Positions 1,379 to 33,547 of a DNA stretch of 39,696 bases are shown here, one piece after another (position 1 is the stretch's first letter; each line of letters starts with the position of its first letter). The position numbers and the translations under genes were made by a program. The stretch comes from a virus, in IMG/VR virus record IMGVR_UViG_3300021378_000060, positions 1 through 39,696 of that record; one strand, 5' to 3'. A model generated the notes under the pieces. That model had not been told where the DNA came from. It saw nothing but the letters and a program-made list of their open reading frames with translations, and did not search any database.

Positions 1379-3154
1379 ATGGCATTTACTACAGACCCGA
1401 ATCAGTTTAACTTTAAAAACAACCTCAATGACCTTCAAAAGAAGCGTCATAAAGATCACATTGCTACAGTTACAGTAGATGCTAATGGCAAGTTTGAAAC
1501 ACACAGTGAATTAATTATTACTCCTAAAGGTAATGATAAGATTAACAAACGTGTAAGTGTACTTCCAGACGCAGGCGAAACAGTAGTTAAAATGACTGAA
1601 GCAAGTTACTTGTTTAAAGACTTGCAACAGATGAATGTTATTCTTACTAATGCTTGTAACCTAAGTTGTTCTTATTGTTATGAACAACATAACAGAGACT
1701 TTGGTCGCTTTACTCCAGACAGTTTACTAGAAGCATATAACTTCTTACTCAACGTAAGTAAGCATGAACATAAAATGTTTCAATTCTTTGGCGGCGAACC
1801 TTTAATTCATAAAGATTTAATATTAGGCTTCTTAAGAGAAAACAAAGATTATCTTACAGAACAATCAAGAGGTTACACCAAGCAACAAATTAGTTGTGTT
1901 ACCAACGGATTGTTAATGACTGAAGACTTCTTAGAAGAATATTATTCATATCCGTTTACACATATTCTTTGTAGTCTTGATACTATTAGAGCAGAAGTTG
2001 ACCATAGAGAAATTGGTCAAAAAAGAATTGACGCTCTATTAAGAACAATAGATAAGATTCCAGAACATGCTAAAAAAGGTAATAGAATTACAATGCGTTG
2101 TACTCTTGCTAAAGAGAACGCTCCTTACTTTAAAGAGTTTGTAAAAGCAGTATATGATGCTGGTGTAAGGAACATTGTTGTACACCCGTTAATTTTAGAT
2201 AGTTCAAGAGGATTTATTGCTTGGACTGATGAACAATGGAACACACTTCATCAAGATATTCTATGGACATTAGAAAACTATTTTGATCTAGGAATACACT
2301 TTTCAGAAGGCGTTGGACAAAAAGGTGAAAACAACTGTATGGTAGGTAGTGACATGGTTGCTATTGACGCATCAGGTGACTACTCAGGTTGTTACTTCTT
2401 TACAAATCAAAAAGCAGGACCTGCAGGTAAAACAATCTTAGGTAATGTATTTGAAGATAGACTTTACTTAGATAGATACAAAGGCTTTCAACAATCATTT
2501 AGTAAAATGGTTGAGGAAGAAGAACAGTGTCGTACATGTGATTATAAAAATGCATGTTACCAATGTCCAGCAGGAAACATGGACACAGGTACACGTTTGT
2601 TCCGTCCGGATGATATGTGTCAAAAGATTGTAAAATTATATGTTGACCTACAAGACGATATTGAAATTAAAAAGTTCCAACAAACATATCAAATGACCAT
2701 TGACACTTGTGAAAAAGAAGGTGAAGAAAAAGTATTCATCAAGTCACCTTTACACGTTATGTTTAAAATGTTTTCAGATGTACATGCTAAAAGAGAAGAT
2801 ACAAACGAAGCATGGAAAAAGATTCCAAGCAGTGGACAACTATATGCGGCATGGCAAGCAATGATCAATGATGGTTACAAGATGGACAATAACAATGGCG
2901 AACCAGACTTCCATGTATTTTTGGAAGATGTTATTGGATACTGTAACGAAGACAGTATTTCTATTAAAGAACTATACGAATGGCTAACAGAGAAAGCCAA
3001 TATACCAAATGAATTAAGTAAAGCAGTTACAGACTTAAACTTTTATGCAAGATGTTCTTATTTGGTATTCTTAAACTTCCTAATATTACATAATAAAAAG
3101 CCATTATCAGGTTCAAACATCCAAACAGTAAAAGAAAAGTTGCTCGGCAACTAA
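1379..3154 (+). CDS. Radical SAM / SPASM-type protein 1, 591 aa
   Basis: Residues 93-100 carry the radical-SAM cluster motif CNLSCSYC (C93, C97, C100), which binds a 4Fe-4S cluster and S-adenosylmethionine. The FFGGEPL element (GGE at 138-140) is the SAM-binding GGEP motif. Further on, a SPASM-like set of cysteines (NNCMVG, GCYFF, CRTCDYKNACYQCPAGN) should hold auxiliary Fe-S clusters. This is the architecture of enzymes that modify peptides or proteins (anSME, PqqE and RiPP maturases). An 85-residue N-terminal extension and about 170 C-terminal residues have no assignment. It is the first gene of an operon of overlapping genes. The substrate is unknown. Confidence 0.9.
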   Translation: MAFTTDPNQFNFKNNLNDLQKKRHKDHIATVTVDANGKFETHSELIITPKGNDKINKRVSVLPDAGETVVKMTEASYLFKDLQQMNVILTNACNLSCSYCYEQHNRDFGRFTPDSLLEAYNFLLNVSKHEHKMFQFFGGEPLIHKDLILGFLRENKDYLTEQSRGYTKQQISCVTNGLLMTEDFLEEYYSYPFTHILCSLDTIRAEVDHREIGQKRIDALLRTIDKIPEHAKKGNRITMRCTLAKENAPYFKEFVKAVYDAGVRNIVVHPLILDSSRGFIAWTDEQWNTLHQDILWTLENYFDLGIHFSEGVGQKGENNCMVGSDMVAIDASGDYSGCYFFTNQKAGPAGKTILGNVFEDRLYLDRYKGFQQSFSKMVEEEEQCRTCDYKNACYQCPAGNMDTGTRLFRPDDMCQKIVKLYVDLQDDIEIKKFQQTYQMTIDTCEKEGEEKVFIKSPLHVMFKMFSDVHAKREDTNEAWKKIPSSGQLYAAWQAMINDGYKMDNNNGEPDFHVFLEDVIGYCNEDSISIKELYEWLTEKANIPNELSKAVTDLNFYARCSYLVFLNFLILHNKKPLSGSNIQTVKEKLLGN

Positions 3155-3174: not shown

Positions 3175-4263
3175 ATGGATGGTCTTGATAAACTAAAACA
3201 TATTTCAGTCTATTTAGGAAACACATGCAATTTTGATTGTTCCTATTGTGATAGAGAATATATTGCTAAAGATGTCGGAGGGCAAACCCTTAAACATGCT
3301 TGGGTTGATCTTGTTGTAGACTTCTTTGATAAAACAATGCCTCACTGCAAAGGTTTAGATATCATCAGTGTGCATGGCGGCGAGCCTTTCCTATTCATAA
3401 GCAGAATGGACGACTTGTTTACAAAATTGTTTGACAAGTATATTAAAAATACAGATAGAAAGTTTTGTATTACTACTAATGGTAGTCTTATTGCAGAGAA
3501 CAAAGAGTTCTTAAAGAAATGGGGACCATATATAAAGTTTACAATATCCTACGATTTTGCATTTCAAAAACAAAACAGAGAGTATGTCGATGTTGTAGAG
3601 ATGGCAAACATCATACACGAATGCGGTGCTACTATGCAATGGCAATATGTTATGCCTACAGATGATAAACGTTGTTTTAATTTAGATGTTATTACAGAAA
3701 TTATTAGGACTTGTCAAAAGACAAAATGTAATACAATTAATCTTATACCATTAAGACACAAGCGTGGTGCTCGAAAGTTTGAAGTTATTATTGATGATAT
3801 TCATTTAGGTGAATGGTTTGATAACTTCTTACAGTTTATTACAATACTTTATACTAAACGTATTAACATTTATGTAGATGGTATATACGGAAACCTAAGT
3901 GCTATAGATAAGTTTTACTATGACAACCATCACAAGATGATACTGTCACCAGATGGATACATTTATCCTGAGTATGACTTTTTAGAATACAAACGAAATG
4001 AATTTAGAGTAGGGCAATGGACTGATGGTACATTAGAGTATACACCAGAGTTATATAGACAACAAGACGAAAAGAACCTAATACGATCTGAATGTTATAA
4101 CTGTCCAAGTAAAGATAGTTGCGGACTTAAATATCTATATAAGATGTTTGATCGACCACCTGGAACTAGTTGTATACAGTTTTATCAAATGGTTGATGCA
4201 AGTATTGCTTATTGTTACAAACTACAGCAAAAAGACTCAGTGTTTGAATGGGTAGGAATATAA
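3175..4263 (+). CDS. Radical SAM protein 2, 362 aa
   Basis: The N-terminus has CNFDCSYC (C18, C22, C25) followed by SVHGGEPF, the cluster and SAM-binding motifs of radical-SAM enzymes. The C-terminus has a shorter cysteine group (ECYNCPSKDSCGLKY and GTSCIQ), consistent with a SPASM or twitch domain holding at least one auxiliary cluster. It is shorter than protein 1 and lacks its N-terminal extension. It may be translated from a leaderless mRNA made by the promoter just upstream, or coupled by readthrough from gene 1. Its stop overlaps the next start (TAATG). The substrate is unknown, but peptide or protein modification is likely from family precedent. Confidence 0.88.
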   Translation: MDGLDKLKHISVYLGNTCNFDCSYCDREYIAKDVGGQTLKHAWVDLVVDFFDKTMPHCKGLDIISVHGGEPFLFISRMDDLFTKLFDKYIKNTDRKFCITTNGSLIAENKEFLKKWGPYIKFTISYDFAFQKQNREYVDVVEMANIIHECGATMQWQYVMPTDDKRCFNLDVITEIIRTCQKTKCNTINLIPLRHKRGARKFEVIIDDIHLGEWFDNFLQFITILYTKRINIYVDGIYGNLSAIDKFYYDNHHKMILSPDGYIYPEYDFLEYKRNEFRVGQWTDGTLEYTPELYRQQDEKNLIRSECYNCPSKDSCGLKYLYKMFDRPPGTSCIQFYQMVDASIAYCYKLQQKDSVFEWVGI

Positions 4264-5375
4264 TGGATAGAATAGTAGACACACCGGCACCAAATAGAAA
4301 TAGTTTCATACAGTATTTTTATGAAAACGATTCTTTGCTTAATGTACACAATGAAGTTATCTTTAGTGTATTAGGTAGATATAATTGTTTTGCTGGTTGT
4401 AAAGTATGCTATACTGAAAAGCATTTTAAGGAAGCAATGCCTTATTTTAAAAACTTTATACCCAAAGAGATCAACACAGACATAGAACAACAGTGGACTA
4501 AAGTATTTGAACACTTCAAACATATTAGTAACATTGATGATTTGTTTTGGATGAAGCATGAACAAACGCATTTATATGATTGGTACAAACAAAACAGTCA
4601 TAGATTCATTTGGGGAAGCATGACTGATAATAACTTTATTAGAACACAACCGTTGTTTGTTAATGAACTATCTGCAGATACAAAGATACAAGAGATTAGT
4701 TTTAGCACAGGTTGGCTAGACAAAGTTAATAAGACAGAAATATTTGCTATGCTCAAAGAACTTAATGAGCGTAACGGAATACAAAAGATAAAGTTTATTT
4801 TAACAACACAGGACAACAACAGTCTTGACTTGTTAAGCAAGTGGGTTGAAGATAACGGAATAGGTTACACTTGTTCACATCATGACTTTAATGAAGTTAC
4901 AAAGAAACTAGACACAGACATTCCACAAGCAGAACACATTGCAAGTTTTGACAGTGATGTATTCTATGTGTGTAGAGAAAGTAATTATCTACAACACAAC
5001 GGATTCTTTCTTACACTTATAGAAAGTATTGATGTAAACAACAGACCCTATCATCAATTCAAAGAGTTTGATGCTACTAAACACCTAAGTGATATGATAC
5101 AAGGCAAAGTAGATTTGTATACCAAATGGGTAAACAACAATCAAAATGTATTAGACATACAAGCAAACAAAGATTATTTTGATTATTTTAAATGGGTTTC
5201 AAATAATGTTAAAGTTAATCACAACTATAACTTTATACCAATTGATCTTCTAAATGCACAACACAAATATTATCATCAACTAACTAAAGTTGGATGGAAA
5301 ATAACAGATTACGGATTATTAAAAACAGGAACAAGCAATGTTGTTCCATTACTAGAGGTGAGCAATGACAGTTGA
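4263..5375 (+). CDS. Degenerate radical-SAM-like protein 3, 370 aa
   Basis: CFAGCKVC (C42, C46, C49) keeps the CxxxCxxC spacing of radical-SAM enzymes, so a 4Fe-4S cluster is plausible. I see no clear GGEP motif and no SPASM cysteine array, so it may be a reduced or divergent member. ATG 4263 is preferred over ATG 4248 because it overlaps the previous stop as TAATG with TAGGA just upstream. It lies between two well-formed radical-SAM genes and overlaps the next by 11 bp, so it is expected to be co-translated. It could be a partner subunit or an enzyme with a different reaction. Confidence 0.7.
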   Translation: MDRIVDTPAPNRNSFIQYFYENDSLLNVHNEVIFSVLGRYNCFAGCKVCYTEKHFKEAMPYFKNFIPKEINTDIEQQWTKVFEHFKHISNIDDLFWMKHEQTHLYDWYKQNSHRFIWGSMTDNNFIRTQPLFVNELSADTKIQEISFSTGWLDKVNKTEIFAMLKELNERNGIQKIKFILTTQDNNSLDLLSKWVEDNGIGYTCSHHDFNEVTKKLDTDIPQAEHIASFDSDVFYVCRESNYLQHNGFFLTLIESIDVNNRPYHQFKEFDATKHLSDMIQGKVDLYTKWVNNNQNVLDIQANKDYFDYFKWVSNNVKVNHNYNFIPIDLLNAQHKYYHQLTKVGWKITDYGLLKTGTSNVVPLLEVSNDS

Positions 5376-6828
5376 AATACCAATAAAGTTTATTACTCCA
5401 CATAAAATTGAAGACACACATCTTTTAGATGACGGAGATAATACAGGGCAAGTAAGCAGTATCATCAGTGGCACACACGAAGAAATTGCAGATGGTCCTT
5501 ACACAGTATTTCGTATGAAGAATACAGGACAACAACTTGTATATAGTAATTTTACAAATGGTATATATGATACTAACCTGAACAGTTTAAGTGAAGTAAC
5601 ACCACAAGACGAAAAGTGGGACGAGATACAATCACATGTAAAAAAGAGAACTAAAAGTAATACTCCAATATGGCTACGTATACTATTTGGTCATGCTTGT
5701 AACTATAGTTGTTCATACTGTTTACAAAAAGATATTGGTAACCCAGATGAACGTGGTAAGATATGGACACTAGATAGTTTTATTGACACAGTTAAAACCA
5801 AACTGGATCTAAGTCAAACAGAGAAGATTGACTTGTGGGGCGGTGAAACTATGCTGTATTGGAAAAGCATTACACCTATTATAGATGAGTTTGATAGACC
5901 AGGTATGCAATGGTACTTTGCTACAAACGGCACACCGTTAAGACAAAAGCATATTGATTATATTAACAAGATTAAAGGCATTGGATTGTTTGGAATAAGC
6001 CATGACGGTCCTGGGCATGTTTCATTACGTGGTAAAGAGTTCTTATGGGATCCTATTACAATAGAAGTTCTAAAGAACATGCAAAAGAATAGAGAGAAGA
6101 TACGTTTTAGTTTCAATCCTGTTGTAAGTGCAACCAACTATGATCTGTTCGCAATCAATAATTTCTTTAGAGATTATATGTTAGAAGTAGGATTAGATCC
6201 TGACCTAGTAACTATTAGTTACACGCTGGGCAGAGTACATGCTGACGAAGATCACGAAGGTAGCGTAAGCATGGACCATGTTATACGTGGTGATGATCTT
6301 AAAAAGTTTAAAGATATTGTTGATAGATTTATTGAATGCAATATTGAACAAGCACAAGGTATTAAAGACCACGGGTTGTTAAGAAGCAACATATTCCATA
6401 ATGGTCCGCGAAGTGTACTGGGCTATGGTGAAACATTCCAAAAACAGATACTTCCTAACATAAGTACAGTGTGTGGTGCAGATGATGATCAAGTATTGAG
6501 CGTTGATGTAGCAGGTAACGTTAGAACTTGTCCACATGTTGATGATAGTTTTATTAGTGGTACACTTAATAAACTTGAAGATGTAGTAATTAAAAAAGTA
6601 GATTACAGTCGTTATGATAAACACTGTAAAGTTTGTCCTGTTTATAGATTATGCAAATCTAACTGTCCAATCAATGTACCGGACTTCGTGTTCCTTACTA
6701 ATTGTGCATTAGAGAAAGTATGGAACAAAGCAATACAACGTGGAGCCTTTAAGGCAATTTTCGGCAGTGATGCAGAATTAGTAGAAAGTGGATTAAATGA
6801 AACTACCATTAAAAAATATAGAAGTTAA
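5365..6828 (+). CDS. Radical SAM / SPASM-type protein 4, 487 aa
   Basis: The radical-SAM motif is CNYSCSYC (C112, C116, C119), followed by DLWGGETM (GGE SAM site). The C-terminal SPASM-like cysteines appear in VCGADDD, VRTCPHVDD and HCKVCPVYRLCKSNCP. About 110 residues precede the core, as in protein 1, and could be a substrate-recognition region, though I cannot identify an RRE fold by eye. The start has an AGAGGTG site and overlaps the previous gene by 11 bp; the end overlaps the DUF3050 gene by 32 bp. A role in modifying a peptide or virion protein is inferred. Confidence 0.88.
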   Translation: MTVEIPIKFITPHKIEDTHLLDDGDNTGQVSSIISGTHEEIADGPYTVFRMKNTGQQLVYSNFTNGIYDTNLNSLSEVTPQDEKWDEIQSHVKKRTKSNTPIWLRILFGHACNYSCSYCLQKDIGNPDERGKIWTLDSFIDTVKTKLDLSQTEKIDLWGGETMLYWKSITPIIDEFDRPGMQWYFATNGTPLRQKHIDYINKIKGIGLFGISHDGPGHVSLRGKEFLWDPITIEVLKNMQKNREKIRFSFNPVVSATNYDLFAINNFFRDYMLEVGLDPDLVTISYTLGRVHADEDHEGSVSMDHVIRGDDLKKFKDIVDRFIECNIEQAQGIKDHGLLRSNIFHNGPRSVLGYGETFQKQILPNISTVCGADDDQVLSVDVAGNVRTCPHVDDSFISGTLNKLEDVVIKKVDYSRYDKHCKVCPVYRLCKSNCPINVPDFVFLTNCALEKVWNKAIQRGAFKAIFGSDAELVESGLNETTIKKYRS

Positions 6829-7564
6829 ACAGTTAGAACTTACAACACATCCTTTACTCAGTACCAATGTGATTCAAACACAGCAGGACTTAAGAATCTT
6901 TATGGAACATCATGTGTTTCCAGTATGGGACTTTATGAGTCTTGCCAAAGCATTACAACATCGTATCTGCCCAAGTGGTGATGTATGGTTACCTACAAAG
7001 CACACAAGAGATGAAAGTGCTAGACTCATTAACGAAATCATTTGGGGCGAAGAGTCTGACAAAGACTTAGGTGGCGGAAGCATATCACATTTTGATTTGT
7101 ACTTACAAGCAATGGCTGAAGTAGGTGCAAACACTAAACCTATTTTAAGATTCATTGACAATGTAGAACAACAAGGTGTTGACTACGCAATAGAAAATAC
7201 AAAAGGCATACCCGATTGTACTAGAGATTTTATGCGTACAACATTTGACTTTATTGCTACAGGAAAGAAACATGTAATTGCTAGTGCATTTACATATGGG
7301 AGAGAAGCAGTTATACCTGGAATGTTTCAAGGTATATTACAGCAACTTAATATTAACTCGTACGAGGCAAAGAAGTTTCATTACTATCTACAAAGACATA
7401 TTGAACTAGATGGTGACGAACACGGACCTATGGCTACTAAACTTGTAGAAAACTTATGTGGTGAAGATCCATTAGCATATGTTGAAGCAGAAACAGTAGC
7501 AATAGATGCAATGAATGCTCGTATTAAATTTTGGGATCAAGTGGAGAAAGAACTTTTTGAGTAA
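6797..7564 (+). CDS. DUF3050 family haem-oxygenase-like protein, 255 aa
   Basis: The sequence matches the DUF3050 pattern I know: [59 protein letters not shown] and [21 protein letters not shown]3050 belongs to the haem-oxygenase-like helical fold that also contains PqqC, TenA and diiron oxidases (HDOs). The His/Glu-rich signatures ([15 protein letters not shown]) would suit a metal site. The length is normal for the family. It overlaps the radical-SAM gene upstream by 32 bp and IF-1 downstream by 8 bp. It is probably an oxidase acting with the radical-SAM proteins; the exact reaction is unknown. Confidence 0.88.
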
Positions 7565-9830: not shown

Positions 9831-9902
9831 TTACTTGTTCATTACATACATTGTAACTTCAAAGCCAAAACGCATTTCTTCAAACGTAGGTTTTGTCCAC
9901 AT
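9831..9902 (-). CDS. pqqA: PqqA, precursor peptide of pyrroloquinoline quinone, 23 aa
   Basis: Too short for usual gene calling. The peptide begins MWTKPTFEEM and continues RFGFEVTMYVMNK. It has the same length (23) as Klebsiella PqqA and aligns without gaps: MW at 1-2, P5, R11, G13, E15-V-T, Y19, N22. E15 and Y19 are the two residues that PqqE and later enzymes fuse to make PQQ, and both are present with the required three-residue spacing. An AGGAG site lies about 9 bp upstream, a TTGACT-17-TTAAAT promoter about 85 bp upstream, and a strong terminator follows the stop. No pqqB, C, D or E is seen nearby, so the peptide would feed host enzymes or the phage radical-SAM cluster. Confidence 0.9.
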   Translation of the reverse strand: MWTKPTFEEMRFGFEVTMYVMNK

Positions 9903-10132: not shown

Positions 10133-10366
10133 ATGGACATTCTAAATAAAGTAAAGGCTTGGGCCGGAGCATTAACAGAAGCAGGAATTAGTCTGCTTTC
10201 GTTAGGCATCGTGTTAGAAGTCTTGTTCAACGGACAGAACATTCCGTTCTGGCCAAACATCAACATAATTGCTAACATTCAAAACATTGTTGCAGGTTTC
10301 TCTGCACAAGGTTTAGTTGGTCTTGTTGCTGTCTGGGTTTTATATTCAATTTTCAATAAAAAATAA
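10133..10366 (+). CDS. Small two-pass membrane protein, 77 aa
   Basis: Two hydrophobic segments, about residues 15-32 (TEAGISLLSLGIVLEVLF) and 53-72 (IVAGFSAQGLVGLVAVWVLY), separated by a polar loop with NGQNIPFWPN. It resembles short membrane proteins of marine T4-like phages from memory. It has an excellent AAGGAGG site and its own late promoter and terminator, so it is probably abundant late. A holin role is possible from size and topology but is unproven. Confidence 0.75.
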   Translation: MDILNKVKAWAGALTEAGISLLSLGIVLEVLFNGQNIPFWPNINIIANIQNIVAGFSAQGLVGLVAVWVLYSIFNKK

Positions 10367-10480: not shown

Positions 10481-10615
10481 TTAGTAACTCGGATACATAT
10501 TATTCTTGAACTCAGTAATCTCTGCGGCTCTTTTGTAGTATCCATGAGCCCTTAGTTCTCGAATTGCCATACAGTAACTTCTGTATTCCATTGCTTTAAT
10601 AAATCTTTTAAACAT
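10481..10615 (-). CDS. Small basic protein, 44 aa, last gene of the DUF1127 operon
   Basis: Starting at ATG 10615 the peptide is MFKRFIKAMEYRSYCMAIRE followed by LRAHGYYKRAAEITEF. The pattern xxxRELRxHGYxxxAAE resembles the C-terminal part of the 69-aa gene upstream (RARAAAELSRQGYHDEARAL), so the two look like paralogous partners of the two DUF1127 genes. A longer open frame reaches back to 10747 but runs antiphase through the DUF1127 gene, so the short start is preferred. It overlaps that gene by 8 bp. Confidence 0.65.
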   Translation of the reverse strand: MFKRFIKAMEYRSYCMAIRELRAHGYYKRAAEITEFKNNMYPSY

Positions 10616-10853
10616 GTGCCTTACCTTTCCAAGTTGCAACAGTCCTACCACGCATGTAGTGATCACCTGCTTCGTATTTTTCTTTTGCTTCTTCTTCACG
10701 TACTGCTTCATATGCAATGTGTGCAATGTCTCCTCTACAAATACCAATATCTTTTAGGTCTTTGTCAGTGAGTTGACTCAACTCATTAAAAGTTTTTTCT
10801 GCTCTTCGATGTGCTAAAGATAACCCAAATATTTTTTTAATATGTAAAAACAT
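10608..10853 (-). CDS. DUF1127 protein (second copy), 81 aa
   Basis: The core ELSQLTDKDLKDIGICRGDI is the DUF1127 (YjiS-like) signature, preceded by a basic helix (RRAEKTFN). DUF1127 proteins are small Arg-rich proteins very common in Alphaproteobacteria; in Agrobacterium and Rhodobacter members have been tied to phosphate and carbon metabolism and to RNA binding. Here the usual short protein carries a longer C-terminus (YEAVREEEAKEKYEAGDHYM). Its start overlaps the previous stop as TAATG. It could modulate host regulation during infection (inference). Confidence 0.82.
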   Translation of the reverse strand: MFLHIKKIFGLSLAHRRAEKTFNELSQLTDKDLKDIGICRGDIAHIAYEAVREEEAKEKYEAGDHYMRGRTVATWKGKAHV

Positions 10854-11062
10854 TATTTCTTATACTCCAACGGTAAAGTCATTAATGCTCTTGCTTCATC
10901 GTGATATCCTTGTCTAGATAATTCAGCGGCCGCTCTTGCTCTGCCTGCTGATTCACCTAACGCAATTACACCTACAAAAAATACAGCGAAAACGTTTCGT
11001 ATTACACTACAAATTTTACATGTGTAGTTCCATGTTGTGTTTGAAATTGTTGCTACAGTCAT
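10853..11062 (-). CDS. Small membrane-anchored protein, 69 aa, DUF1127 partner
   Basis: ATG 11062 overlaps the previous stop as TAATG and has AAGGA at a suitable distance; an alternative ATG at 11071 would add MGI. A hydrophobic segment (VIRNVFAVFFVGVIALG, about residues 21-37) is followed by GRARAAAELSRQGYHDEARA, which resembles the end of the 44-aa gene at the operon's 3' end. The membrane segment sets this copy apart. Function unknown. Confidence 0.7.
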   Translation of the reverse strand: MTVATISNTTWNYTCKICSVIRNVFAVFFVGVIALGESAGRARAAAELSRQGYHDEARALMTLPLEYKK

Positions 11063-11322
11063 TATACCCATCCTTTTAAATTTCTGTTTGTTGTTACATT
11101 CATTCTACTATCATTAAATGTTCCTAGTGAAATAGATTTAATGTCTGATCTCCCAATTCCCAAGTCTTTTAGTTCATGATCTGATAATTCTTGCAATGAC
11201 TTGTAAGTTTTACGAGCCAGTGCTTTATCTTTTCTTTTGTGATTTATTTCTTTAACTAAATCTAACAAGCCGGCAATAGCGTCTTGAATCAAATTTGATA
11301 CTGTCATAATTGCTTGTGTCAT
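11062..11322 (-). CDS. DUF1127 protein (first copy), 86 aa
   Basis: TYKSLQELSDHELKDLGIGR followed by SDIKSIS is a clear DUF1127 motif, with a basic KRKDKALARK segment before it. The N-terminal 30 residues are hydrophobic and helical. The start overlaps the previous stop (TAATG) and has GGGAG about 12 bp upstream. It pairs with the second DUF1127 gene 200 bp downstream, suggesting duplication of a two-gene unit. The phage may use it to alter host phosphate signalling or RNA turnover (inference from the family). Confidence 0.85.
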   Translation of the reverse strand: MTQAIMTVSNLIQDAIAGLLDLVKEINHKRKDKALARKTYKSLQELSDHELKDLGIGRSDIKSISLGTFNDSRMNVTTNRNLKGWV

Positions 11323-11501
11323 TAGTTGTATACTCCCGCTCTTGGTCCGCGACCTTCATGCGTTAGCATATAATGATAGGCATAGCGCCAATCATTTCCG
11401 TACTCAGTTTTGGCGTAAGTGAGCATCTCTTTTTCGAACTTCCTAGTTGGAAGTGGGTTTCCAAGTAAACTCACAAGGCCGTTGAATAGCATAGTAGCCA
11501 T
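11322..11501 (-). CDS. Small protein, 59 aa, first gene of the DUF1127 operon
   Basis: Just under common length cut-offs but well supported: ATG 11501 with AAGGAG 7 bp upstream, stop overlapping the next start as TAATG. The sequence starts MATMLFNGLVSLLGNPLPTR and ends with YAKTEYGNDWRYAYHYML and RAGVYN. The AKTEYGxDWxYAYHxM pattern reminds me of short proteins encoded near DUF1127 genes in marine Alphaproteobacteria, but I am not certain. It is the leader-proximal gene of the five-gene minus-strand operon. Confidence 0.75.
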   Translation of the reverse strand: MATMLFNGLVSLLGNPLPTRKFEKEMLTYAKTEYGNDWRYAYHYMLTHEGRGPRAGVYN

Positions 11502-11679
11502 TTTACTTCTCCTTATATAAGTTTTGGATGCTTGAGGAAAGCAATACCCCGGAACTTCCCCGGCGGTGCAACTACCTTTGGTAGCCGTCGTTCGCTTTTT
11601 TAGGACGTCTGCGCCGTCCCACTGTCTTTCCAGTGTGTATGTGTGTTGAATAGTACAACCATGCTGTCCTACTCATCTC
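11502..11679 (-). promoter_or_regulatory. GC-rich structured leader of the DUF1127 operon
   Basis: Between the late promoter and ATG 11501 lies about 170 nt with GC content well above the surroundings and several stems on the minus strand: GGACG/CGTCC with a 7-nt loop, CTACC/GGTAG closed by AAA and nested inside CGGC/GCCG, and CCGG/CCGG. It looks like a folded RNA (cis-regulator or processed small RNA). No known family is recognised. Confidence 0.5.
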
Positions 11680-11687
11680 TATTTATA
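11680..11687 (-). promoter_or_regulatory. Late promoter TATAAATA, minus strand
   Basis: Perfect late box on the minus strand upstream of the structured leader and the five-gene operon. Confidence 0.75.
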
Positions 11688-11932: not shown

Positions 11933-11961
11933 TCAATATAAGGTATTTCATTGCTCCGGCA

Positions 11962-12984
11962 TTGATACTTGTTGCACTCGCAGGAGTGATGGCAGGTGGT
12001 GCATGGACATGGACAGGTGTGGGCCTATTGGGAATAGGCATCATATTTGATACACTAGTAACTCGCAAAACCTCAGGAGCAGGCTTTGATGAGAATGGTG
12101 AACCTTATGGCATCCCATGGTTACAAAATGCAGTAATGTATTCAATGTTACCAGTTTTCGTAGCACTACAACTTGGACTTGCATACCAGATATATTCAGG
12201 CATGTGGGGAGTAGAGTTGTTAGGTGCTGTTCTATCAACAGGTATATTTGCAGGCATAGGTATAATATATGGACATGAACTATCACACACCAAAGGCTTT
12301 AGTTTTATAATAAGTCGTTGGATGATGGGTCTTTCAGGTTCAGCACATTTTTGTTATGCTCATGTGTACAATCATCATTTGGAATTAGCAAGTGAAGATG
12401 ATCCTGCAACTGCACCACGTGGACGTAATCTATACGAACATTTCTTTAAAAGTCATCTAGGACAAAGTAAGTTCTTATTTGAAATGGAAAAGAGTAGATT
12501 GAAACGTTTAGATAAACCTTTTCTATCTTTAAGTAATAGATGGATAAGAGGTTACATGATGAGTTTCCCTACTATCTTCTTGTTCTTTTTAGCAGGTGGA
12601 TGGGCAGGTGTTGCATGTATGGCATTGGTATGGATGATATCAAACTTTGAACTAGAAGCACTTAACTATCTAGAACATTATGGTTTGGTACGTGTTAAAA
12701 GTGAACCAATAGACTACAGACACAGTTGGGATAATTCTACATTGTTCACAAGTTGGTTCTTTATAGAGATTGGTCGTCAGGCTGATCATCATGACAGAGG
12801 TGAAACACACTTTTGGGAACTAGACGAAGTAGGTGCACCTAACACAGGTATAGGTTACTTTACATTGTTTGCATTAGCATTAATACCACCAGTGTTCAAT
12901 CGCTTTATGAAAAAGCATTTGGATAACTGGGATGAAAATTTTGCTACTGAAGCAGAAAGAGAAATAGCGAAGCAATTCGTTTAA
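11962..12984 (+). CDS. alkB: AlkB-type integral-membrane alkane/fatty-acyl monooxygenase, 340 aa from TTG
   Basis: Diiron membrane hydroxylase with all AlkB histidine boxes: HELSH (105-109), HVYNHH (134-139), NYLEHYGL (235-242) and RQADHH (272-277). Several hydrophobic segments surround them, as in alkane 1-monooxygenase, which hydroxylates terminal methyl groups using rubredoxin electrons. No rubredoxin is seen here. The TTG start has no ribosome site; the frame is open upstream and joins the AGGAGG-driven ATG 11909 by a -1 shift, giving about 358 residues, closer to the family length. A fatty-acid or xylene-monooxygenase-like substrate cannot be excluded. It is probably host-derived. Confidence 0.88.
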   Translation: MILVALAGVMAGGAWTWTGVGLLGIGIIFDTLVTRKTSGAGFDENGEPYGIPWLQNAVMYSMLPVFVALQLGLAYQIYSGMWGVELLGAVLSTGIFAGIGIIYGHELSHTKGFSFIISRWMMGLSGSAHFCYAHVYNHHLELASEDDPATAPRGRNLYEHFFKSHLGQSKFLFEMEKSRLKRLDKPFLSLSNRWIRGYMMSFPTIFLFFLAGGWAGVACMALVWMISNFELEALNYLEHYGLVRVKSEPIDYRHSWDNSTLFTSWFFIEIGRQADHHDRGETHFWELDEVGAPNTGIGYFTLFALALIPPVFNRFMKKHLDNWDENFATEAEREIAKQFV

Positions 12985-13074: not shown

Positions 13075-13455
13075 ATGGCATACTCCGATAAAGTACTTGA
13101 CCATTACGAAAATCCACGCAACGTTGGAACATTTGATCCCAAAAGAGATAACATAGGAACAGGCATGGTAGGTGCACCTGCATGTGGAGATGTTATGCGA
13201 CTACAAATAGAAGTTGAAGAAGGTGTCATTAAAGATGCTAAATTTAAAACCTATGGTTGTGGTAGTGCTATTGCTAGTTCAAGTTTACTAACCGAAATGG
13301 TCAAAGGTATGACACTTGAACAAGCCGGCGAAGTTAAAAACATGGATATAGCAAATGAACTTGCATTACCTCCAGTTAAAATACATTGTTCTGTACTAGC
13401 AGAAGATGCCATTAAAGCCGCCATCACTGATCTTAAATCCAAACTCGATATGTAA
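13075..13455 (+). CDS. iscU: IscU-type Fe-S cluster scaffold, 126 aa
   Basis: Full-length IscU homologue: it begins YSDKVLDHYENPRNVGTF, then APACGDV (C37, D39), TYGCGSAIASSS (C62) and PVKIHCSVLAEDAI (H104, C105). The three cysteines, the aspartate and the histidine that hold the nascent 2Fe-2S cluster are all present. The length matches bacterial IscU (about 128). No IscS, HscA/B or ferredoxin is seen, so it would use the host cysteine desulfurase. A likely job is to supply Fe-S clusters to the phage radical-SAM proteins (inference). It stands as a single gene with its own late promoter. Confidence 0.93.
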   Translation: MAYSDKVLDHYENPRNVGTFDPKRDNIGTGMVGAPACGDVMRLQIEVEEGVIKDAKFKTYGCGSAIASSSLLTEMVKGMTLEQAGEVKNMDIANELALPPVKIHCSVLAEDAIKAAITDLKSKLDM

Positions 13456-13624: not shown

Positions 13625-14584
13625 ATGGACGCACTCACCCTATGGATGGCAATAGGTTTCGCCTTTGCCGCTTATTCCGTAATAGCAAATGATTCAGTAC
13701 AGACTCTTGGTACATGGATCGCAAGTAACAATGAGAGATTCAATTGGAAAATTATGTGGGGGTGTGCAAGTGCAGTTCTCCTTTATACATTGTGGTATGG
13801 TTGGTATACCAACGGTGGAGATATTAGTTATGGACGACTAAACAAAATACCGTTTCAAGAGATACAATGGTATCATGCGGCGGCACCGGGACTATTATTA
13901 ATACTTACACGGATAGGAGTACCAGTTAGTACTTCTTTTTTAGTATTAAGTGCTTTTGCAAGTACATTTGTATTAGAGAAGATGCTTATGAAAAGCATGA
14001 TGGGTTATGCAGTTGCGGCAGTTGCGGCATATGTTATTTGGATAGGAGTTACTAAACTCTTAGATGAAGCAAAGCCTGTCAAAGAACAACATAAAAAAGC
14101 ATGGCGTGTTGCACAATGGGTAACAACAGGCTTCCTGTGGTTTACTTGGCTAAGTCATGACATGGCAAACATTGCTGTGTTCCTACCTAGAGAAATACCT
14201 TGGGATTTAATGGTCCTAATTAGTATTGTATTTGTAGGTGGACTTGCTTATATGTTCCGTGAAGGCGGCGGAAAGATTCAAAAGATTGTACTTGAGAAAC
14301 ACAATACTAGATACGTAAGAAGTGCTACTATTATTGATGGTGTATACTGGCTGATATTGTTTTTCTTTAAAGAACTAAATGATATTCCGATGTCAACAAC
14401 ATGGGTGTTTGTAGGACTACTATGTGGACGTGAACTTGCTATGGCAACTATGACAGGCAAGGAAAAGTTCAAAACAGTATTTCCATTAGTAACCAAAGAC
14501 TTCTTCAAGATGATGATAGGCTTAGGTGCATCAGTAGGAGTAGTGTTAATGATACACTATGTTATTGTTCCTAACGGACTTTAA
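13625..14584 (+). CDS. PiT-family (PHO4-like) phosphate permease, 319 aa
   Basis: Polytopic membrane protein with two inverted-repeat halves: ANDSVQTLGTW near residue 21 and SHDMANIAVFLPR near residue 173 correspond to the paired GANDVAN-type signatures of PiT transporters. VPVSTSFLVL and IPMSTTWVFVGLLCGRE are the matching re-entrant Ser/Thr segments of each half. About eight to ten membrane segments are visible. PiT proteins import inorganic phosphate with a cation; other anions such as sulfate are possible. An AGGAG site precedes ATG 13625, and a strong promoter and terminator isolate the gene. Phosphate import would suit DNA synthesis in phosphate-poor seawater. Confidence 0.78.
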   Translation: MDALTLWMAIGFAFAAYSVIANDSVQTLGTWIASNNERFNWKIMWGCASAVLLYTLWYGWYTNGGDISYGRLNKIPFQEIQWYHAAAPGLLLILTRIGVPVSTSFLVLSAFASTFVLEKMLMKSMMGYAVAAVAAYVIWIGVTKLLDEAKPVKEQHKKAWRVAQWVTTGFLWFTWLSHDMANIAVFLPREIPWDLMVLISIVFVGGLAYMFREGGGKIQKIVLEKHNTRYVRSATIIDGVYWLILFFFKELNDIPMSTTWVFVGLLCGRELAMATMTGKEKFKTVFPLVTKDFFKMMIGLGASVGVVLMIHYVIVPNGL

Positions 14585-16765: not shown

Positions 16766-17038
16766 ATGAAACGCAAAACTAGAAGCCTATTAGAAGAACT
16801 TAATGATTTCGCTGTAACTAAAAAGACAGAGAATATTGTAGAGTCAAGAGCAAACCATGTAATTGAGAGTGCTATCAACATAGTTGAAATGATACGTACA
16901 AACTTTGATGGTGAAATTGCCCAGGATTTAGAGAAGCGTTTTTATAACTCTATCAAGTCAGGCGATGCAACAAAATTTATGCGAGGCATCAAAAAAATCA
17001 AAGCAAGTGATAAAAGTGAATTAGACGATGTTAATTGA
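16766..17038 (+). CDS. Hypothetical helical protein, 90 aa
   Basis: An all-helical, charged protein (KRKTRSLLEELNDFAVTKK at the start; KRFYNSIKSGDATKFMRGIK in the middle). It has a good AAGGAG site and late promoter and overlaps the next gene by 11 bp. It is the first gene of a series that appears to encode capsid-interior or head-associated proteins. It also has an LLEE site near its N-terminus, possibly relevant to prohead protease cleavage. No family is recognised. Confidence 0.75.
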   Translation: MKRKTRSLLEELNDFAVTKKTENIVESRANHVIESAINIVEMIRTNFDGEIAQDLEKRFYNSIKSGDATKFMRGIKKIKASDKSELDDVN

Positions 17039-18263
17039 AGACATTATAAGGCTACAAGAAGCCGAGGGTAAGAACACACATATGGAACACGTTGAGGAAG
17101 AAGCACTCAACCGTGGTAAAGAAGGGGCTGAATATGCAATCAATCAAATGATGTTGTTTGCAGATATGCTCAAAGGCCGTACTAACAAAAAGTTAAGAGT
17201 AAGTGTAAAATGGGATGGTGCTCCTGCAATCGTATGCGGAGTTGATCCTGAGAGTAAAAAATTCTTTGTAGGAACAAAGGGTGTGTTTAATGCTAGTCCT
17301 AAACTAGGAACTAGTCATGAAGAAATTGACAGACTATACGGAGAGTCAGGTGCAGTATCAAAGTTACATCTAGCATATGATTATCTTAGCAAACTAGGAA
17401 TTACAGGCGTACTACAAGGCGACTTTATGTTTGACGATAGTTCAAGACGTGAAGAAGAAATTGACGGCGAAAAGATGTACACTTTCAAACCACAACTTAT
17501 TACATATGCAGTACCAGTAGACAGCGACATTGGTAAGCGTATTGGAAATGCAAAGTTTGGTATTGTCTTTCATACAAACTACGAAGGCAATACATTAGCA
17601 GATGCAACAGCAAACTATGATGTTAATGTTAGTAACTTAAAACGTTCAAACGATGTTTGGTTTGACGATGCATTCTTTAAAGACGTTTCAGGTTCAGTGC
17701 TAATGACAAAAGATGAAACAGCACAAGTGAAAAAAGATTTGGCAGATGCAATGGGGGCTTATAAAGCAGTACCAAATGCAGTATGGGAAGCAATGAAATC
17801 AAATGATGATTTTATTAAAAACTTTAAGATTTGGATTAACACAAATATTAGACAAGGTAAACTAGCAGGCGATCCAGGCGAATTTTTAAACGGCTTTATT
17901 GATTGGTACAAGGAAAGAATTGAAGGTGAGATTGCAAAACTTAAAAATCAAGATCCAGAGAAACCAGCAGTTAAAAATAGATTACAAAAGATTCAAAACA
18001 ATATGAACTTTATTAACACAAACAGAAAAGGCTTGTCAGGCATTATTATTTTTATGACTGAGATTACAAACCTAAAGAAAATTTTTATTACTAAACTTAA
18101 CAACATTGAAAGCATTGCACACTTTTATAAAACAGCAGATGGCTATGAAGCAGGCTCACCTGAAGGCTATGTAGCAATTGATCATACAGGTGGAGCAGTT
18201 AAGATTGTTGATAGACTTGAGTTCAGTCGCAGAAACTTTACTACTCCTAAGGACTTTGGTTAA
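17028..18263 (+). CDS. Nucleotidyltransferase/ligase-like protein, 411 aa
   Basis: Residues 59-69 read SVKWDGAPAIV, matching motif I (KxDG) of ATP-dependent DNA/RNA ligases, where the Lys (61) is adenylated. TGVLQGDFMFD (about 126-136) resembles motif III, AKFGIVFHTN motif IIIa/IV, and SPEGYVAIDH with AVKIVDR resembles motifs IV/V. The order and spacing fit a ligase fold, though similarity is remote. The N-terminus (MLIEDIIRLQEAEGK) contains LQE/A, a plausible gp21-type cleavage site. It is tightly coupled to the genes on both sides. A polynucleotide ligase or adenylyltransferase is the best guess; it may also be a structural derivative. Confidence 0.6.
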   Translation: MLIEDIIRLQEAEGKNTHMEHVEEEALNRGKEGAEYAINQMMLFADMLKGRTNKKLRVSVKWDGAPAIVCGVDPESKKFFVGTKGVFNASPKLGTSHEEIDRLYGESGAVSKLHLAYDYLSKLGITGVLQGDFMFDDSSRREEEIDGEKMYTFKPQLITYAVPVDSDIGKRIGNAKFGIVFHTNYEGNTLADATANYDVNVSNLKRSNDVWFDDAFFKDVSGSVLMTKDETAQVKKDLADAMGAYKAVPNAVWEAMKSNDDFIKNFKIWINTNIRQGKLAGDPGEFLNGFIDWYKERIEGEIAKLKNQDPEKPAVKNRLQKIQNNMNFINTNRKGLSGIIIFMTEITNLKKIFITKLNNIESIAHFYKTADGYEAGSPEGYVAIDHTGGAVKIVDRLEFSRRNFTTPKDFG

Positions 18264-32939: not shown

Positions 32940-32968
32940 TTGACTTTTTGGTTAAAAGATAGTATAAC
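32940..32968 (+). promoter_or_regulatory. Sigma70-type promoter of the tmRNA locus
   Basis: TTGACT, 17-bp spacer, TATAAC; +1 near 32975 at the start of the tmRNA acceptor piece. Confidence 0.65.
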
Positions 32969-32974
32969 TATATA

Positions 32975-33037
32975 CGTAACGTTGAAGCAATTCAAACGCT
33001 ATTCAGGACCCCGGGGCGGTACCGGGCGACTCCACCA
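32975..33037 (+). ncRNA. ssrA: Permuted tmRNA, acceptor piece
   Basis: Ends with CGACTCCACCA: CGACTCC pairs fully (one G-U) with GGGGTCG at the start of the coding piece (33243-33249), and ACCA is the aminoacylated tail. Just upstream is a T-arm, CCCGG / CCGGG (33010-33014, 33022-33026), with a 7-nt loop GGCGGTA. AACGCTATT (32995-33003) pairs with AATAGAGTT (33271-33279) of the coding piece, forming part of helix P2. This order, acceptor first, is that of the two-piece tmRNA of Alphaproteobacteria. The 5' end is approximate. Confidence 0.85.
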
Positions 33038-33052
33038 TAAGGACATTGAAAA

Positions 33053-33241
33053 ATGGAAATTATTTGGCATATACTATTAACAGTTTGTTCAGGCTCGACC
33101 TGCTTAGAACAAGATGTACAATGGTTTGAAACTAAAGCACAGTGTGAAACTATGCTTGTAGAATACGTAGAAGTACCAAGTGATGGATCTTGGGATACAG
33201 TTGAATACATCTGTAAGCCTGTAGGTTCAATGTCTTTATGA
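33053..33241 (+). CDS. Small protein encoded inside the tmRNA intervening segment, 62 aa
   Basis: MEIIWHILLTVCSGSTCLEQ followed by FETKAQCETMLVEYVEVPSD, SWDTVEYICKPVG. A hydrophobic N-terminus (possible signal or anchor) and four cysteines are visible. AAGGAC precedes the ATG. I recall similar Cys-containing short proteins (CLEQDVQWFE...GSWxTVEYxC) in marine T4-like phages. Its ribosome site begins two bases after the CCA of the acceptor piece, and its stop ends one base before the coding piece, so it fills the segment that is cut out when tmRNA matures. Translation would have to use the precursor or excised RNA. Confidence 0.8.
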   Translation: MEIIWHILLTVCSGSTCLEQDVQWFETKAQCETMLVEYVEVPSDGSWDTVEYICKPVGSMSL

Positions 33242-33242
33242 T

Positions 33243-33420
33243 GGGGTCGAAATAGGATCGACTGGTAGTTAATAGAGTTAGTGGAGTTATCCGGATCTAA
33301 GCACGGTTATCGCGAAGAAAACTTATAATTGCAAATGACAATTATGCGCCAGAAATGGCATTAGCGGCCTAGTTTAGGCACGTAGGGGTTGGCAACTTAC
33401 CTGGCAACAGAAAAGTTGCG
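33243..33420 (+). ncRNA. ssrA: Permuted tmRNA, coding piece with tag ANDNYAPEMALAA
   Basis: Begins GGGGTCG (acceptor 5' strand), then AAATAGGATCGAC (D-loop-like). The tag reading frame starts at GCA 33331 and ends TAG 33370-33372, coding for ANDNYAPEMALAA, with the usual AND start and LAA end for ClpXP recognition. After the tag a 7-bp hairpin (33392-33398 with 33413-33419) and possible pseudoknots follow. tmRNA with SmpB rescues stalled ribosomes. The 3' end is approximate. Confidence 0.88.
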
Positions 33421-33547
33421 TACTATAAAGAGAAATATAAATACTGTATATACAAAAGCACCTTTAACTATAACAAAAGAACACAGTATAGAACGGACTC
33501 TATCCACGCCGTAGGCGACTTACATATAAAATAAGTATATTTAAAAG
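33421..33547 (+). other. AT-rich tail of the tmRNA locus
   Basis: No gene seen. Contains a perfect late box TATAAATA (33436-33443) and a small CGCC/GGCG hairpin near 33515; possibly trailer sequence of the tmRNA precursor. Confidence 0.4.

Follow-up and report, generated by a model that had tools for sequence, protein, structure and literature searches.

A candidate structured leader RNA upstream of a modular operon of small DUF1127-type proteins in a T4-like phage

The minus strand of a viral DNA between positions 10481 and 11501 raises the question of where a compact series of small genes, two of them of DUF1127 type, comes from and how its expression is set. The DNA analysed, called the window in the following, is a linear virus record of 39,696 bases. 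An earlier note on it had described five tightly overlapping minus-strand genes, interpreted them as a doubled unit of a DUF1127 gene and a small partner gene, and seen in them a hint of a takeover of host phosphate control. The five open reading frames are present, and neighbours share 1-10 nt:

11501-11322, minus strand: gene A, 59 aa, helical, motif AKTEYGxDWxYAYxYM
11322-11062, minus strand: gene B, 86 aa, DUF1127
11071-10853, minus strand: gene C, 72 aa, hydrophobic segment and RARAAAELSRQGYHDEA hairpin
10853-10608, minus strand: gene D, 81 aa, DUF1127 head and GDHYMRG..WKG tail
10615-10481, minus strand: gene E, 44 aa, MEYRSYCMAIREL..GYYKRA

Purifying selection acts on all five genes. 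Measured against close relatives, dN/dS amounts to 0.18-0.34 for A, 0.47-0.88 for B, 0.23-0.28 for C, 0.21-0.24 for D, and 0.11-0.18 for E. The 59- and 44-residue genes, which had been pointed out as lying below common length cut-offs, are therefore real. The partner genes are likewise conserved, as the earlier interpretation presupposed: besides their low dN/dS, C has 365 viral relatives and A has 191, and 29 distinct relatives of E occupy the same operon position. No Pfam or PHROG family matched A, C, or E. A BLAST search of A against 50,697 phage records yielded nothing useful, a comparison of C with plasmids gave no match, and the two-helix structure that AlphaFold predicts for A (mean pLDDT 69) is too weak for a useful fold search.

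The roles of DUF1127 and DUF3563, two families of small bacterial proteins, are still under debate. B and D are both DUF1127 proteins, as claimed, and as such related to stress regulators of bacteria; they score 38.3 and 39.4 bits, respectively, with PF06568 (gathering score 23.3) and are also matched at the DNA level. Neither is arginine-rich (5.8% in B, 7.4% in D), whereas the family averages about 14% arginine (PMC12501420); this richness is a typical trait of DUF1127 proteins that comes with no defining cut-off. In Agrobacterium and E. coli, members of the family bind PhoR and can replace one another across species, and CcaF1 of Rhodobacter binds RNA (PMC12501420). For A to E, we infer functions in host regulation.

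The alignment of the two pairs bears on their origin. Within the DUF1127 core, the identity between B and D from a single phage is 0.45-0.52, that between D and the B-type genes of other phages 0.55-0.70, and that among D genes 0.70-1.00. In relatives, proteins outside DUF1127 that are encoded at this operon position also carry the GDHY..WKG tail of D. C and E do carry a common E-L-x3-G-Y-x3-A segment, as had been noticed, but the motif is weak, and only 12 residues agree overall. A tandem duplication of a DUF1127-partner unit inside this phage lineage would account for this short motif and for the B-C-D-E order, which resembles a repeated pair. However, D resembles the genes of other phages more than the B of its own phage, its tail stems from another module, E lacks the hydrophobic part of C, and operons with two DUF1127 genes, as in the window, form a minority of about 8 in some 110 loci. 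The doubling is scarcely credible in view of these observations. The identity pattern and the shared tail fit a second module that was recruited, rather than a duplicated pair, with D as this module and not as a copy of B.

The make-up of the operon also varies across related phages. Viral loci were fetched with B, D, A, and C as queries, and in the operons tallied, A comes first by construction of the search. Module classes were assigned by rules from sequence patterns, with some errors expected, and in this tally about 34 module orders occur over about 110 distinct related phage loci. A is followed by varying combinations of a DUF1127 or DUF3563 protein (the latter with 32-37 bits for PF12086, cut-off 26.9) and then of hairpin, tail, and membrane modules. 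The C-type module consists of a hydrophobic segment and a RARAAxELxxxGYxxxA hairpin. Further modules are the GDHY..WKG tail, placed on a hairpin or a DUF1127 head, the E-type protein, and short membrane proteins. The commonest orders are A-DUF3563-hairpin/tail-membrane and A-DUF1127-hairpin-E. Judged by these sequence patterns, the operon is modular and reassorts around the leading gene A, and it shows phages carrying and shuffling DUF1127 and DUF3563 genes. No paper on DUF3563 was found in the literature searched.

The phosphate hint relied on a PiT permease of the phage, and a divergently oriented PiT-like gene does exist, 2 kb from the operon:

13625-14584, plus strand: PiT-like permease, divergent (PDB 6l85, E=5e-4 with phmmer)

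With 12.7 bits for Pfam PHO4 (PF01384), its product stays below the cut-off of 33.7 for the PiT family, and no match to it was found among the 50,697 phage records. Of the 377 loci fetched, some of them redundant, 166 contain the gene. Within 6 kb and always in divergent orientation, a homologue accompanies 14 of 22 DUF1127 operons and 7 of 24 others, in a small sample of loci taken as independent though they are related. The phage DUF1127 proteins might bind host PhoR and alter the Pho response while the permease imports phosphate, a possibility with which this association, the short distance, and the PhoR binding known from two bacteria agree. However, the PiT assignment itself is weak, the arginine content of B and D is about half the family mean or less, and DUF3563 replaces DUF1127 in about a third of the operons. 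While the permease-like gene stands, its use in a phosphate takeover is unlikely.

The protein encoded at 17028-18263 is closest to those of the OM43 Melnitz phages, followed by cyanomyophages (about 40% identity), which identifies the virus as a T4-like phage. Going by a core gene, for which OM43 phages of the Melnitz group are the best-matching isolates, hosts other than SAR11 or Roseobacter come into question. PqqA, the radical-SAM genes, and the alpha-type tmRNA fit a methylotroph or an alphaproteobacterial host, without settling the matter. Several features of the window outside the operon are listed here:

1379-3154, 3175-4263, and 5365-6828, plus strand: three clustered radical-SAM genes
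4248-5375 and 6797-7564: uncharacterised genes interleaved with the radical-SAM genes
9831-9902, minus strand: PqqA precursor peptide of canonical form, MWTKPTFEEMRFGFEVTMYVMNK (46.4 bits with NCBIfam TIGR02107, cut-off 20)
10133-10366, plus strand: membrane protein of 77 residues, with conservation in 147 of the fetched loci
11944-12984, plus strand: fatty-acid desaturase/AlkB-like enzyme, divergent from the operon
13075-13455, plus strand: NifU_N/IscU-like protein, divergent from the operon
32942-33424, plus strand: alpha-type tmRNA encoded by the phage, permuted and in two pieces (107 bits with RF01849)

Variants of PqqA occur in several related phage loci, and PqqA has been reported for a methylotroph phage from Lake Baikal (PMC7678222). 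The NCBIfam models nearest to the radical-SAM genes are a PapB-type peptide maturase and a viperin-like one, all far below cut-off. The permuted alpha-type tmRNA is known in Melnitz-like phages (PMC9004378). The membrane-protein gene possibly has a hairpin leader of its own (GCTGACGACAGTGATCAGC) just upstream.

A stretch upstream of A is more conserved in the alignment than the genes themselves. It belongs to a leader of about 170 nt (11680-11502, minus strand), which starts at a T4-type late promoter and has the following parts:

11680..11687, minus strand: late promoter element TATAAATA, T4-type, exact match
11648..11674, minus strand: hairpin H0 at the leader 5' end, from the MFE fold, with similar hairpins seen by eye in relatives
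11620..11635, minus strand: hairpin H1, covarying stem round the loop G[GANAGA]C
11603..11619, minus strand: hairpin H2, changes on both sides in 4 of 5 pairs, in a covariation alignment that has the window's own copy off by one column
11570..11586, minus strand: hairpin P2 with CC-AAA-GG triloop, covarying; 0, 1, or 2 copies in relatives
11546..11567, minus strand: hairpin P3 (ACCGCCGGGGAAGUUCCGGGGU), near-invariant; G[NAAAGA]C hexaloop form in relatives
11529..11543, minus strand: hairpin H5 (UGCUUUCCUCAAGCA), from fold and comparison; loop UUUCCU complementary to the Shine-Dalgarno (SD) sequence, putative loop-SD pairing
11528..11635, minus strand: leader core, match of covariance model R1 (107.4 bits, E=1.6e-23)
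11509..11513, minus strand: SD sequence AGGAG of gene A, from sequence
11467..11480, minus strand: early A codons (GGCCUUGUGAGUUU), complementary to the SD region; pairing with AAAACUUAUAUAAGG, 11511-11525

The promoter element occurs at positions -225..-110 before A in 56 of 78 distinct leaders, with a median position of -188 in these 56, while shuffled sequences reach a mean of 1.1 and a maximum of 5. It agrees with the T4-like late promoter used for Melnitz (PMC9004378). With this late promoter upstream, the gene cluster is a predicted T4-type late operon.

The leader has a conserved secondary structure with compensatory changes. In H1, 100% of the helix cells are paired and 2 of 3 pairs show compensatory changes; its 15 distinct arm pairs, taken without an alignment, are 86.7% paired against 60.7% after shuffling. 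For P2, compensatory changes affect 4 of 6 pairs, and the corresponding values for 20 distinct arm pairs are 95.8% and 69.5% (shuffled maximum 80.8%). In 22 diverse sequences, standard pairs fill 95.5% of the pair cells (81.9% shuffled), double-change cells number 66 (20.7 shuffled, sd 3.6), and the covariation score is 0.372 (0.112 shuffled, at most 0.059 in slid controls); these sequences share descent, so the counts are not independent and comparison with the shuffles makes significance too high. The wide spread of compensatory pairs speaks more strongly for the structure. P3 and H5 barely vary, being too conserved for a covariation test, and are predicted from folding and from alternative P3 stems in variant leaders. 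A candidate helix P1 (GYGAU/AUUGC), a competitor of H5, fits many loci by sequence. CsrA-type GGA sites were rejected, as several hairpins have no GGA in the loop, and so was a loop-loop pairing of H1 and H2, for which the complement is not kept across loci.

Model R1, built from part of the related sequences and with a seed that included a near-identical relative of the window copy (L158), has its only significant match in the window at the leader, with no second copy there. It finds most of the related loci; a weak second match of 18 bits in one of them (L289) apparently lies inside coding sequence. No Rfam family reached the gathering score for the window leader or for six variant loci, and the E-value mode returned only noise for the same sequences.

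The distribution of the leader links it to A. An exact 23-mer of the leader is present in 104 viral contigs. In the 105 loci fetched (these contigs and L165), A is the next gene in 96 of 98 readable cases; the two near-identical loci L116 and L117 apparently have a hairpin-type ORF after the leader instead. The search used leader DNA alone, so that the link to A was not built in. A genes without the 23-mer have leaders that share this architecture but are built of other hairpins. The loop G[NANAGA]C is found in many of them, and such variants possess two middle hairpins where others have one or none. A degenerate probe for the variant form matched 51 contigs, with A next in all 49 readable ones, and with a third probe, A follows nearly every true element among the matches listed. 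Altogether, at least 155 viral contigs carry the leader, with A nearly always immediately behind it, and the leader hence holds a fixed position upstream of one gene family. Without an Rfam match yet so widespread, it is a previously undescribed RNA of ocean phages. A BLAST search of the leader against the 50,697 phage records yielded nothing useful, and no cultured phage carrying it was found. Its sole match in a genome collection, L165 (PAND01000020.1), is a contig binned as Flavobacteriales, probably a mis-binned phage contig.

The recurrence of the G[NANAGA]C loop in several hairpins of varying number would also suit a trans-acting RNA, i.e., a hairpin chain that, once cleaved off the mRNA, sequesters a ribonuclease or RNA-binding protein of the host. 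Such a free sponge would need neither the almost constant fusion of the leader to the ribosome-binding site of A nor the coupling of its 3' part to the A codons, and this use is quite unlikely.

The coupling concerns the start of translation. In the window, AAAACUUAUAUAAGG includes the start of the SD sequence and can pair with CCUUGUGAGUUU in the A codons, and other clades reach a similar SD-codon pairing from different sequences. The predicted probability of the SD sequence being unpaired is 0.40, compared with 0.54 for synonymous recodings of A (Wilcoxon p=1.9e-10 for 80 loci, taken as independent though they are related). In these 80 loci, the SD region also folds more stably than the recodings (median percentile 0.05). 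The bias is modest, with three or four loci showing the opposite, and in these models it suggests that masking of the SD sequence exceeds what the protein sequence of A needs. The H5 loop UUUCCU could pair with the SD sequence as well.

A pairing of this type is known from Sinorhizobium meliloti, where the ribosome-binding site of a leader ORF upstream of a DUF1127 gene pairs with the early codons of that ORF (PMC12218461). By analogy, translation of A as a leader ORF may decide whether transcription proceeds into the DUF1127 gene. However, A is conserved as a protein, overlaps B directly without a terminator gap, and also heads operons devoid of DUF1127, and the S. meliloti leader, as far as described, has no such hairpin chain, which makes a translation-sensing attenuator decidedly improbable. 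A long structured 5' end beside a late promoter might, in turn, merely stabilise the late mRNA against ribonucleases. Stability alone explains neither the near-invariant loops and single-stranded parts nor the coupling to the A codons, and a purely passive leader is very improbable.

The reading we favour, and hold to be probable though well short of certain, is a late, translationally coupled operon of host-type regulatory small proteins, controlled by a structured 5' leader RNA that belongs to a new class. Transcription would start at the late promoter, and the nascent leader would fold into a chain of the hairpins H0, H1, H2, zero to two copies of P2, P3, and H5. In the resting fold, the SD sequence of A would be masked by the early A codons and possibly by the H5 loop. 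A factor recognising the hairpins would shift this fold and set the translation of A; it is most likely a protein, since the same loop type recurs in variable copy number. Overlapping stop and start codons would carry the control of A on to B-E, and the products of such operons (A, hairpin and membrane modules, and DUF1127 or DUF3563) would then target RNA or regulatory proteins of the host late in infection. The regulatory step, the ligand, and the protein targets are put forward here as a proposal. Speaking against a leader-gated model, the Methylophilales phage Melnitz (MZ577097) has an A-C-DUF1127 operon, and no copy of the leader RNA was found in this phage; the leader is therefore not essential to the gene set.

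A broader version is tentative and falls just short of an even chance. It assumes a new riboregulator class of T4-like marine phages, in which modular hairpins recognising proteins or metabolites gate the late translation of interchangeable, host-mimicking small proteins (DUF1127, DUF3563, and unnamed modules) and thereby rewire host signalling. To our knowledge, phage leader RNAs of such size and conservation have rarely been described. The leader and the always-first gene A provide defined handles on the timing of late expression in phages of streamlined ocean bacteria.

A close relative among known operons is that of Melnitz (MZ577097, 31038-31624), in which genes similar to A and C and a DUF1127 gene lie tightly packed in the same order; unlike the window, it has a single DUF1127 gene, and the paper on this phage does not mention DUF1127 (PMC9004378). 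Like established DUF1127 proteins (PF06568; YjiS, CcaF1, the Agrobacterium SDPs), B and D exceed the family cut-off, are small, and co-occur in several copies, but they are low in arginine, phage-encoded, and part of an operon with A and hairpin modules. DUF3563 (PF12086), absent from the window's own operon, takes the second operon position in those relatives that have it. The glutamine riboswitch of Melnitz-like phages (PMC9004378), a different RNA from the leader, is a precedent for control by structured RNA among T4-like phages that infect streamlined marine bacteria. The duf1127_1 leader of S. meliloti also places DUF1127 under 5'-UTR control, with a ribosome-binding site paired to early codons of the upstream ORF; there, control works by attenuation of transcription and depends on the RNA rather than on the peptide (PMC12218461), whereas the phage combines a conserved protein A with a hairpin-chain leader.
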